The position numbers and the translations under genes were made by a program. A DNA stretch of 64,000 nt from Dehalogenimonas formicexedens (GTDB lineage: Bacteria > Chloroflexota > Dehalococcoidia > Dehalococcoidales > Dehalococcoidaceae), in the NCBI RefSeq assembly GCF_001953175.1, contig NZ_CP018258.1, positions 1,454,210 to 1,518,209 of the forward strand. Reading direction: 5' to 3'. A model generated the notes under the pieces. The model worked only from the letters and a program-made list of their open reading frames with translations, was not told where the DNA came from and did not search any database. Below, one piece after another: positions 24,013 to 41,458 of the stretch. The first letter of the stretch is position 1, and each line of letters opens with the position of its first letter.

Positions 24013-24045
24013 ATGTCCAGGACGCCCTTCCACCGCCGCACCTGA
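24013..24045 (+). CDS. Possible 10-codon leader peptide (MSRTPFHRRT)
   Basis: ATG 24013 follows AAGGAGGTGATAAGC, an extended match to the anti-Shine-Dalgarno sequence, far better than the site of the real gene downstream. The reading frame is MSRTPFHRRT then UGA. It could also begin at an in-frame ATG at 23995 (MKEVIS extension). The peptide is rich in Arg and His. I propose a regulatory upstream ORF; there is no direct proof of translation. Confidence 0.4.
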   Translation: MSRTPFHRRT

Positions 24046-24182
24046 CGGGAAATTGATAGGCGCGCTTGCCGCGCCCCCGGGACTGCTTACGCCTCCCTGC
24101 CGTCGGGTGTTTTCGGCTAGTTTAGTCGAACATCTCATCTGTTTCATCGCGACGGCGGAGGCACCCCACCGTCTTTCTTTGA
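24041..24182 (+). promoter_or_regulatory. Structured leader with terminator-like hairpin
   Basis: CCTGACGG (24041-24048) can pair with a CCGTCGGG segment near 24101, enclosing a GGCGCG/CGCGCC hairpin. Further on, GACGGCGG (24151-24158) pairs with CCACCGTC (24166-24173, one mismatch) and is followed by TTTCTTT, like an intrinsic terminator inside the leader. With the short ORF this looks like an attenuator. No known riboswitch class recognised. Confidence 0.4.
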
Positions 24183-24271: not shown

Positions 24272-25546
24272 ATGGTTTTAACCGAAAACGAGCAGATGTG
24301 GGCAGACCTTGGTATCGACCTTCAAGCTCATGGTCAACTGATGAATGCCCTCGGTCCCATTTACCAGGACATTTACCTCAGCCAGAAAAACCGCCCCAAG
24401 GGCATGGGTTTTTACGATTTCGTCGTCGGAGACATCCACGGCATCCGGGTCAAGGAACTGCGTGAACACGCCAAATCCGGCGGCAAGGTGGTAGCCACCT
24501 ACTGCGTCTTCGTCCCGGAGGAATTCTGCTGGGCGGCGGGCGCCATACCCATCAGCCTCTGTGCCGGCACCGCCTTTTCCATTCCCGCCGCCGAAGAAGT
24601 GCTGCCCCGCAATACCTGCGCTTTGATAAAATCATCCTTCGGCTTCAAGCTGGGCAGGTTGTGCCCCTACGTCCAGGTTTCTCATCTCATCGTCGGTGAG
24701 ACCACCTGCGACGGTAAGAAAAAGATGTTCGAGCTCCTGGCCGAGCACCAGCCGGTCTACGTCATGGAGGTACCCAACAAGCGAGGACCCGCCGGCCGCG
24801 CCCTGTGGCAGCAGGAGGTCCGGGATTTCAAGGCCAGGATCGAAGAACTGACGGGCAACAAGATCACCGCCGAAAACCTGGCCGAGGCGATCAAGAAGGT
24901 CAACGCCCGCCGCCGGGAGTTCAAGCGCCTGTCGCAACTCAGGGCCGCCGACCCGGCGCCCATTTCCGGCAAGGACGCCCTCCTGGCCACCCAGGTGTCG
25001 ATGTACGATGACGTCGACCGCGAGACCCAGATCATGAAAGCTTTAAACGATGAACTCGAGGAGCGGGTCAAAAACGGGGTCGGCGTCTTCCCCAAAGGCG
25101 CCAAGCGCATCCTCATCTCCGGCTCCCCCATGGCTATCCCCAACTGGAAGCTGCACCACATCATCGAAAGCGCCGGCGCTGTAGTCGTCGGCGAGGAGTC
25201 CTGCACCGGCAGCCGCTTCTTCGATGAGCTCGTTCCCGAGGGTATCACCGACCTCGACGAGATGTTGACCGCACTGGCTGATCGATACTTGAAAACCAAC
25301 TGCGCCTGCTTCACCCCCAACTGCGAACGGCTGGACGACATCATCGGCATGGCGAAGGCCTTGAATGCCGACGGCGTCATTCACTACAACCTGCAGTTCT
25401 GCCACACCTACGCCAACGAGGCCATCCAGGTAGACAAGGCGCTGGAAAAAGCCGGCGTCCCGCTCCTGCGGATTGAGACCGACTATTCCGACGAGGACGC
25501 CGGGCAACTCAAGACCCGCATCGATGCCTTCCTGGAGACTTTATAA
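24272..25546 (+). CDS. Double-cubane-cluster anaerobic reductase (2-hydroxyacyl-CoA dehydratase family)
   Basis: A 424-residue iron-sulfur protein of the HgdB/BcrC superfamily. The Cys pattern (CVFVPEEFCWAAG, RLCPYV, TTCDGKKKMFE, EESCTGSRFFDE, TNCACFTPNCERLDD, QFCHTYANEA) matches double-cubane cluster proteins described from Carboxydothermus, which carry a [8Fe-9S] cluster and reduce small molecules at very low potential with ATP. The physiological substrate is unknown. Next come its ASKHA activase and YedF, the usual neighbours. ATG 24272 follows GAGAGG. Expression probably depends on the structured leader. Confidence 0.88.
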   Translation: MVLTENEQMWADLGIDLQAHGQLMNALGPIYQDIYLSQKNRPKGMGFYDFVVGDIHGIRVKELREHAKSGGKVVATYCVFVPEEFCWAAGAIPISLCAGTAFSIPAAEEVLPRNTCALIKSSFGFKLGRLCPYVQVSHLIVGETTCDGKKKMFELLAEHQPVYVMEVPNKRGPAGRALWQQEVRDFKARIEELTGNKITAENLAEAIKKVNARRREFKRLSQLRAADPAPISGKDALLATQVSMYDDVDRETQIMKALNDELEERVKNGVGVFPKGAKRILISGSPMAIPNWKLHHIIESAGAVVVGEESCTGSRFFDELVPEGITDLDEMLTALADRYLKTNCACFTPNCERLDDIIGMAKALNADGVIHYNLQFCHTYANEAIQVDKALEKAGVPLLRIETDYSDEDAGQLKTRIDAFLETL

Positions 25547-38265: not shown

Positions 38266-39488
<1,223 letters not shown>

Positions 39489-39489
<1 letters not shown>

Positions 39490-39800
39490 TGCCCCCGAAA
39501 ATTGAGATAACCCTCCAGCCCGTTTACCTGAAGAACGGCTACATTTACATCCCTGCGGCCTCGGGGTCATTCTTCCCGTCGGGAAAGCCTTTTTCGGTCC
39601 GGTCCATAACTATTGAAGAGCCCGGCGGGTCTTTCACCGCAGAACTCCAGTTCAATAGCAAGGGCTATATCTGAATCAACAAACTCCGCAAGTTCTTTGC
39701 GGCTTACCCGGATTTAAAGCCAGGCGATAGGTTAGAGATCACCGAAGTCGAGCATGGTTCTCGTTACGCCTCACTCCGATTATCTCATTCTGAATTTTAG
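39489..39800 (+). pseudogene. Small beta-rich protein gene with in-frame UGA
   Basis: Coupled to coaBC by a one-base overlap. The frame reads MPPKIEITLQPVYLKNGYIY onward to SKGYI, then TGA at 39672-39674, and continues as INKLRKFFAAYPDLKPGDRLEITEV to a TAG at 39798-39800 (103 sense codons around one UGA). The C-terminal part looks like a genuine DNA-binding-type or AbrB-like fold end (LKPGD), so the original gene spanned the UGA. A CGA-to-TGA change (Arg) is the simplest explanation. A 6-bp stem (CCGCAA/TTGCGG) with loop GUUCU begins 11 bases after the UGA. No family named with confidence. Confidence 0.6.
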
Positions 39801-39804
39801 GTCT

Positions 39805-39903
39805 TGTCATCCTGAATTTTTCCTTTGGCATCCTGAACACCCCCGGTGTGGCATCCTGAACACCCCCTGTGTGTCATCCTGAGCATAGCGAAGGATCTCA
39901 ATG
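39805..39903. repeat. CATCCTGA-type repeats
   Basis: CATCCTGA occurs at 39808, 39829, 39852 and 39874. The last copy continues as GAGCATAGCGAAGGATCTCAATG, a form that resembles the CTGAGC...GAAGAATCTCAATG part of the 162-bp repeat at 41.7 kb. Confidence 0.65.
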
Positions 39904-39924
39904 TCTCCCCTTCACATCTGGAAC

Positions 39925-40137
39925 TTAAATAGGATGAGAGGCCTTCTTCTTCACTTTGTAGCTCAAGCCGATGAAATAGAACCCGCCCAGCATCGAAACG
40001 ACATGAAACAGAACCGCCGGTATCTGGGATGTGAAGGTTGTCGCGTCTTTCGCGGCGACCGCCGCGATAATGGTGATGACTCAGACAATGCCGAGGCCGA
40101 AAAAGACGTATCCGAGTGTTTTGTAAAATGCGCTCAT
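39925..40137 (-). pseudogene. Small membrane protein gene B with in-frame UGA
   Basis: Begins MSAFYKTLGYVFFGLGIV, then TGA at 40081-40083 (codon 19), and continues VITIIAAVAAKDATTF to SYKVKKKASHPI and TAA at 39925-39927. The peptide has two or three hydrophobic stretches and reads as one protein across the UGA. AAAGGAG precedes ATG 40137. A perfect 7-bp stem (TCGCGGC/GCCGCGA) with loop GGUC starts 13 bases after the UGA. Either a Trp codon (TGG) mutated, or the UGA is decoded. Family not recognised. Confidence 0.55.
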
Positions 40138-40149
40138 CTCATCGCTCCT

Positions 40150-40335
40150 TTACTGCTGCACCGCGTTGACAAACATCCACAGCGCAAGCAGCGCAAAAAA
40201 GCCGTGGATGGCGTAACCGGTCATGGAATTTTTGCTCCAGGGTTTTTCTTTCCGGCGGAACACGCCCGCCATTACCATGACTATTCAGACCAGCTGAAAA
40301 ACGAACGCCAACGCTGCGCCGATCCACCATCCCAT
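40150..40335 (-). pseudogene. Small membrane protein gene A with in-frame UGA
   Basis: Begins MGWWIGAALAFVFQLV, then TGA at 40285-40287 (codon 17), and continues IVMVMAGVFRRKEKPW to WMFVNAVQQ and TAA. AAGGAGGTCACGAC gives an excellent ribosome binding site for ATG 40335. It lies 12 bases before gene B on the same strand. The UGA falls in the first membrane helix in a V-UGA-I context, much like V-UGA-V in gene B. A GGCGG/CCGCC stem with a 7-base loop starts 14 bases after the UGA. Confidence 0.55.
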
Positions 40336-40741
40336 GTCGTGACCTCCTTATGGGTTTTCTTTTCGACGAAAATCATAGAACCAGAGCGCTTCTCGCTCAA
40401 TGGCCTCAATACGGGATTTTTCCTGTACTTTTGGCTAGTTAAAAAATAACCTCATCCGGTCAGGACTGGATTGGAGGAGACTGACGACACCATCGATTGG
40501 GAGCCCGACGGGCTGCAGGTCGGGATCAGGCGTTAACCCATGATAAATGAACTGATGATTCCCGACCTCAGCTTCCGGGGTTCTCCGATCTTGTAGGGGC
40601 ACGGCATGCCGTGCCCGCCCCGATGTTCTCGTGCGTCTTCTAAATCGTTTCCTTGGAGCCTTGCCTGTGTTAGTTTATCCTTTTCCCGAAAATCCTTGCC
40701 TTGTGGTATACAATTAACTGATTCGGCAACAGGAGGCCCCT
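40336..40741. other. Gap with a gene remnant and a GTAGGGG palindrome
   Basis: No intact gene is seen. A short frame ending EETDDTIDWEPDGLQVGIRR and TAA at 40536 looks like the C-terminal remnant of a lost gene. A GTAG-headed palindrome (GGGCACGGC/GCCGTGCCC) spans 40593-40619. TATACAAT near 40710 may be the -10 box of the next gene. Confidence 0.5.
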
Positions 40742-41458
40742 ATGTTCGCCAAAAAGACAGTGGTCATCGCATCGGTTCTACTCGGCCTCCTTTTGTCTAT
40801 TGGGGTTTTCAGCATTTGCTATGCCAATTCGGCGCCGCCGCCCCGCATCGTGATCGTCGTCGACAATGCCCCACCCAACCTGGAACTCTCTATCGGCCAG
40901 ACCAAAGCGCACCGTGACAACCGCCTGACCACCGCCTATTTCGTCATTAATCCTTACTTCGAAAAATCAGCTGAATTCCGGCTGACCGTGACCAATGGCG
41001 CCGATACATTCGAGTTGCCCCTCGTGGGTGTCAAATACACCTACAACAATGTCTACACCCTCGACCTTTCCAACCGCCAGCTTACCAGCGGTCCGCCTGC
41101 CTCGAGGTTCATCTGGCTGCCCGTCACCATCCTTCTCACCCTGGCTCTGGAGGGGCTTGTCTTTTTCCTCTTCCGTTACCGCGTCGCCAGGTCATGGCTG
41201 ATTTTTGTCGTCATCAACGTTCTGACCCAGTTAGGACTGTATTATTGGCTGAGCCAGAACTCGAATTTTTTCGACAACTACATACTCTTTACCTACGTGA
41301 TCGGCGAATTCTTTGTGTTTATCATCGAGATCGTTGCGTTTGTCGTGCTGTTAAGGGAACACGGCAGGCTCCGCGCCGCCGCCTATGCTTTCACCGCCAA
41401 CCTCTTCAGCCTCTTCGCCGGTGGTTATCTTTTGATGGTCCTGCCCGCCAGTTTTTAG
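40742..41458 (+). CDS. Exported membrane protein, uncharacterised
   Basis: A 238-residue protein. An N-terminal hydrophobic stretch with an ANS-A site (about residue 29) looks like a signal peptide, followed by an extracytoplasmic beta-rich domain of about 90 residues, then four hydrophobic segments from residue 120 onward. I do not recognise a family. AACAGGAGG precedes ATG 40742. Downstream are only repeats. Confidence 0.75.
   Translation: MFAKKTVVIASVLLGLLLSIGVFSICYANSAPPPRIVIVVDNAPPNLELSIGQTKAHRDNRLTTAYFVINPYFEKSAEFRLTVTNGADTFELPLVGVKYTYNNVYTLDLSNRQLTSGPPASRFIWLPVTILLTLALEGLVFFLFRYRVARSWLIFVVINVLTQLGLYYWLSQNSNFFDNYILFTYVIGEFFVFIIEIVAFVVLLREHGRLRAAAYAFTANLFSLFAGGYLLMVLPASF

Follow-up and report, generated by a model that had tools for sequence, protein, structure and literature searches.

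Are three adjacent small genes, each interrupted by a single in-frame UGA, broken genes, or is the UGA read as an amino acid? The genes lie in a window of 64,000 nucleotides, the whole stretch of DNA analysed, from the closed 2,092,789-bp genome of Dehalogenimonas formicexedens, whose genus degrades chlorinated solvents. An earlier note on this DNA had described the three frames, taking pseudogenes as the default and recoding of UGA as selenocysteine (Sec) or Trp as an alternative. On re-reading the sequence, the frames and all UGA positions were confirmed. The first gene, g1 (39489-39800, plus strand), has 103 codons with its UGA at 39672-39674 (plus strand; Sec62 if decoded as Sec). The other two, predicted to encode two-helix membrane selenoproteins, are g2 (39925-40137, minus strand), with 70 codons and a UGA at 40081-40083 (minus strand; Sec19), and g3 (40150-40335, minus strand), with 61 codons and a UGA at 40285-40287 (minus strand; Sec17), whose product would read MGWWIGAALAFVFQLV-U-IVMVMAGVFRRKEKPWSKNSMTGYAIHGFFALLALWMFVNAVQQ.

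Each UGA is followed by a hairpin resembling the bacterial SECIS element (bSECIS): at 39686-39702 on the plus strand for g1 (CCGCAA-GUUCU-UUGCGG, the same in three genomes), at 40050-40067 on the minus strand for g2 (7-bp stem, loop GGUC) and at 40254-40270 on the minus strand for g3 (6-bp stem, loop CGUGU). The distances of 11, 13 and 14 nt from UGA to hairpin previously given for g1, g2 and g3 were correct, as were stems of 6 and 7 bp for the first two; the g3 stem, described as 5 bp, has 6 because a G-U pair adds one. The loops, earlier placed at 18-21 nt, begin 17, 20 and 20 nt from the UGA; G occupies their first or second position, as claimed. The published bSECIS model describes a loop of 3-9 nt, a stem of at least 4 bp, G in the first two loop positions and a distance of 16-37 nt from the UGA (PMC13188914). 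Checked against it, the three window genes and almost every homolog fit in loop size, stem, G position and spacing, with g3 of one genome, G004, fitting only with a 6-nt loop and a 4-bp stem. Folding energies in the window were -13.5 kcal/mol for g2, -9.9 for g3 and a marginal -7.4 for g1, compared to a published search threshold of -7.5 kcal/mol or lower (PMC13188914), which is missed by g1, by g3 in three species and by g2 in the genome W425.

The warning that such hairpins arise by chance was fair: 11.5% of the 2,135 TGA triplets on both strands of the window are followed by a comparable hairpin, so hairpins alone are weak evidence. The hairpin at 24043, offered in support of that warning, is unrelated to g1, g2 and g3. 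It follows a short leader peptide, MSRTPFHRRT*, which together with the GC-rich hairpin occupies 24013-24120, upstream of a 424-aa gene at 24272, and which is identical in another genome, G005. This hairpin looks like a leader or attenuator and was rejected as a selenoprotein element.

Decoding of UGA as Sec calls on the sel genes, and the search for them that the earlier note had proposed found selA, selB, selC and selD in the genome. selB scored over the cut-off of its family model and tRNA-Sec over its gathering score; the selC-selD-selA-selB locus spans 2,056,145-2,061,139, in which selB was checked and selD and selA were read from gene order and sequence. All eight Dehalogenimonas genomes carry selB over the cut-off and a SelD with its own in-frame UGA and hairpin. 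These SelD elements served as positive control for the hairpin analysis, and their energies also lie near the -7.5 kcal/mol line. selB was absent from three genomes of the neighbouring genus Dehalococcoides, which are also without g3-g2.

Comparison of genomes separated the three genes, previously grouped as alike, into a widespread pair, g3 and g2, and an unrelated coaBC-linked domain, g1. The g3-g2 unit was found in eight genomes, namely five from Dehalogenimonas, a MAG from elsewhere in Dehalococcoidia and two Chloroflexota from beyond that class, with g2 directly after g3 in all of them; selB is over the cut-off in all eight, including W425, G605 and G521. Within Dehalogenimonas, g2 occurs in 5 of 8 genomes with the UGA always at the same codon, and g3 occurs in the same five, its UGA always present. 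A pattern scan for g3 through 84,980 species, one genome per species, contributed a single further genome, the MAG W425. Its g3 (61% identity) precedes a g2 with just 29% identity, and both genes have the UGA in the matching column. The two genomes outside the class, G605 (74% complete) and G521, came from a profile search through 400 Chloroflexota genomes and again have g3 followed by g2 and UGA in both; no standard start codon was found for g2 in G521. Viral contigs and plasmids were also searched for g3 and yielded nothing. Identity among homologs falls to 41% for g3 and 21% for g2 with the UGA still kept, and the homologous codon is UGA in all 16 g2 and g3 genes (8/8 for each). This conservation goes far beyond chance, unlike single hairpins.

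The invariance of the UGA bears directly on the default reading, that each gene is a recent pseudogene in which TGG or CGA became TGA. Such changes are common, and a truncated g1 remnant does exist in one genome (G009). Nevertheless, the UGA is invariant in up to eight species from several lineages, and no homolog was found with Cys, Trp, Arg or any other sense codon at that column among the 16 g2 and g3 genes; the alignment of homologs that the earlier note had suggested revealed no intact frame with Trp or Arg there. Conservation in 8/8 genomes refutes the pseudogene reading for g2 and g3, and with the UGA kept in 3/3 g1 genes as well, the comparative data reject it as the default.

The hairpins of the pair were conserved together with the codon. 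They lie at a fixed distance after the UGA across genomes. All eight genomes have the same g3 loop and 3' arm (CGTGTTCCGC), while the g2 stem has been rebuilt in three different ways between lineages with its position and GUC loop kept. Counting the U of UGA as 1, G25-U26 is present in 16/16 elements and U17 in 15/16. Among codons for amino acids invariant in five species, 5/6 in g2 and 5/7 in g3 are frozen within the hairpin region, compared to 5/22 and 3/24 outside it, and such frozen synonymous sites speak against pseudogenes. Synonymous reshuffling seldom produced hairpins as stable (P 0.001-0.14 for g2, 0.04-0.10 for g3 and <0.01 for g1). Formal covariation analysis detected no double compensatory changes in the g3 stem, since the g3 element is nearly invariant.

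Hairpins 3' of stop codons can also promote readthrough, and the elements could in principle be stimulators rather than SECIS, with the UGA read as Trp or by another near-cognate tRNA; W is indeed found near the UGA column in one distant relative of g1 (L069). However, UGG occurs in no g2 or g3 homolog though the families are old, selB accompanies the pair in every genome, and the hairpins agree with the bSECIS model in loop and spacing (PMC13188914). Of the two forms of recoding put forward earlier, Sec is thus the one supported, and reading as Trp or by a near-cognate tRNA is very unlikely.

Selection on the protein sequence extends past the UGA. Compared to G005, pN/pS before and after the UGA was 0.14 and 0.10 for g3, 0.29 and 0.16 for g2, and 0.20 and 0.28 for g1. 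Within the genus the ratios are low and similar on both sides, also in a Jukes-Cantor version, and rise with distance because synonymous sites saturate. The low ratios on both sides indicate that translation continues past the UGA and that the downstream part is retained, and they show none of the relaxed selection of a pseudogene; taken with the invariant codon, they leave recent inactivation of each gene extremely improbable. When UGA codons conserved in G005 were screened across the window, g3, g2 and g1 were among the 10 lowest dN/dS of 59. By itself this ranking does not decide the matter, since G005 is too closely related and the antisense frames of real genes mimic coding constraint.

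A 182-aa ORF on the opposite strand (39901-40449) would fit a reading in which the UGA really ends translation, only the short N-terminal peptides are made and the downstream frame is kept for another reason, such as an antisense gene. That ORF is interrupted in G005, G010 and G006, however. In the sense frame, purifying selection continues beyond the UGA and a transmembrane helix carrying an invariant His is retained there; a true stop has next to no likelihood. The pseudogene, Trp readthrough and antisense-gene readings were all rejected. Because the anatomy is conserved and the machinery is present, we infer that SelB and Sec-tRNA(Sec), together with the hairpin just after the UGA, would decode UGA as selenocysteine in g1, g2 and g3. 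For g2 and g3, decoding as Sec is highly likely.

The start of g1 overlaps the stop of coaBC (TGATG), a gene with Flavoprotein and DFP domains located directly upstream (38266-39489, plus strand). Only three full-length homologs were found (window, G005 and G004), all in Dehalogenimonas, and UGA and hairpin are the same in all three. The DNA around the UGA is nearly identical in the three species, including about 40 upstream bases (window 39632-39672), and this upstream near-identity exceeds what a hairpin alone explains. Its distant relatives extend CoaBC at the C-terminus in other Dehalococcoidia, form part of other proteins, or occur as independent proteins. Three such CoaBC proteins of other Dehalococcoidia (L068, L072 and L075) end in an additional domain of ~95 aa that is related to g1; this domain was also observed in other proteins (L070, L076) and alone in L069, and neither g1 nor L069, the two examples scanned, matched a Pfam model. 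In weak alignments read by hand, g1 carries a single additional residue compared with these distant relatives; it coincides with the UGA and falls between a strand (GYI) and a helix (LRKFF). Near that column the relatives carry W, Q, K and others, with no Cys. A single-sequence structure model of g1 was poor (pLDDT 52). From these comparisons, g1 would be a small coaBC-coupled domain that gained a Sec between beta strand and helix. It is probably a selenoprotein, the least certain of the three.

The proteins of the pair are very small, 60-62 aa for g3 and about 66-79 aa for g2. Each has two hydrophobic stretches, of which the second is less pronounced in some g3 proteins. The Sec would sit midway along helix 1, and helix 2 contains an invariant His (His44 in g3, His45 in g2). 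A model of g3 from a two-sequence alignment is a helical hairpin (pLDDT 72). Alignment of g2 against g3 by hhalign placed Sec on Sec and His on His with a probability of 86%, which fell to 46% with the Sec column masked; g2 and g3 are probably distant paralogs, a relationship not secure once that column is masked. In 8/8 genomes positive charges are located in the loop of g3 and at the ends of g2, and this opposite bias predicts opposite topologies for the two proteins under the positive-inside rule. We suggest that g3 and g2 could form an antiparallel pair, giving a small four-helix bundle with two Sec in mid-membrane, each aligned with a conserved His of helix 2. As to role, an intramembrane redox site or a ligand site for soft metals or metalloids can be proposed with low confidence. 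We likewise put forward only tentatively that g2 and g3 are Sec-only families, for which nature has no Cys form, and that they assemble into an antiparallel heterodimer whose two Sec-His sites lie within the membrane, an intramembrane selenium chemistry not described before; if true, a membrane-embedded Sec with a partner His would be unusual chemistry.

The genes around the pair vary and do not point to its function: its neighbour in Dehalogenimonas is coaBC, G004 has two rdhA ahead of it, and different genes flank it elsewhere. The G004 arrangement (L043:826-4358), with g3-g2 immediately preceded on its own strand by two genes for reductive dehalogenases bearing Tat signals, raises the alternative that g3-g2 is a split RdhB-like membrane anchor for reductive dehalogenases, with Sec incidental, and rdhB is absent beside most Dehalogenimonas rdhA (PMC4918011). 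No rdhA is adjacent to the pair in the window, W425, G605 or G521, however, and neither protein matched a family in Pfam or NCBIfam, libraries that may hold no RdhB model; an anchor role is improbable. Two other observations were made at this locus. An adjoining 238-aa protein with an N-terminal hydrophobic segment (window 40742-41458) has no Pfam or NCBIfam match and is poorly conserved (43% to G005). Between g1 and g2, at 39805-39900, several direct repeats such as GGCATCCTGAACACCCCC and GTCATCCTGAGCATAGCGAAGGATCTC resemble a dispersed intergenic repeat.

Neither g2 nor g3 gave a match over cut-off in Pfam or in NCBIfam release 20.0, which holds many recent selenoprotein models, and both are absent from a 2026 inventory of 119 prokaryotic selenoprotein families (PMC13188914 Table 1), in which families lacking a profile were judged by name. 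On these grounds g2-g3 appears to be a previously unlisted pair of tiny membrane selenoproteins, which may have been described in other journals or in database annotation. The selenoproteins named for Dehalogenimonas are formate dehydrogenase and SelD (PMC4918011, PMC13390414), a number that g1, g2 and g3 would more than double.

All known selenoproteins are stated to have Cys homologs, and published finders assume them for every selenoprotein family (PMC12013277, PMC5330540). No Cys homolog was detected for g3 in 400 genomes of the phylum or in the pattern scan of 84,980 species, or for g2 in 393 genomes of the class; distant Cys forms of either may exist outside the sampled phylum genomes. 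As far as searched, the premise of Cys homologs fails for these two old, paired families, in which each member found has UGA. Families of this kind would be missed by design by finders that require Cys/UGA pairs, suggesting that more small Sec-only proteins may be present among genes called "truncated" or left unannotated.

Known systems resemble the three genes in part. AbrB/MazE-type domains show a weak match to residues 75-91 of g1 and share its strand-helix layout, but the match is below cut-off and g1 groups with the C-terminal domains fused to CoaBC in other Dehalococcoidia. Paired small multidrug resistance (SMR) transporters have opposite topologies and are, like g2 and g3, adjacent small membrane proteins with opposite charge bias. 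g2 scored a very weak 22.1 bits against the SMR model, far below its cut-off of 200, and g2/g3 were rejected as SMR transporters, having two helices rather than four and Sec and His at the centre. The MerT-like mercuric transport protein (PF02411) and the YeeE/YedE thiosulfate transporter (PF04143) have listed Sec forms, are membrane proteins and possibly bind soft atoms, as g2 and g3 might; the pair differs from both in lacking a Pfam match, in having two helices only and a partner His, and in always comprising two genes. Compared to bacterial selenoproteins in general, g2 and g3 stand apart in being shorter than 80 residues and located in the membrane, with no CxxU or UxxC motif, no listed family and no Cys homolog found. 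With SelD and the formate dehydrogenase FdnG of the same genus they share a UGA followed at the right distance by a hairpin with G or GU at the start of its loop, in genomes that carry the sel genes.
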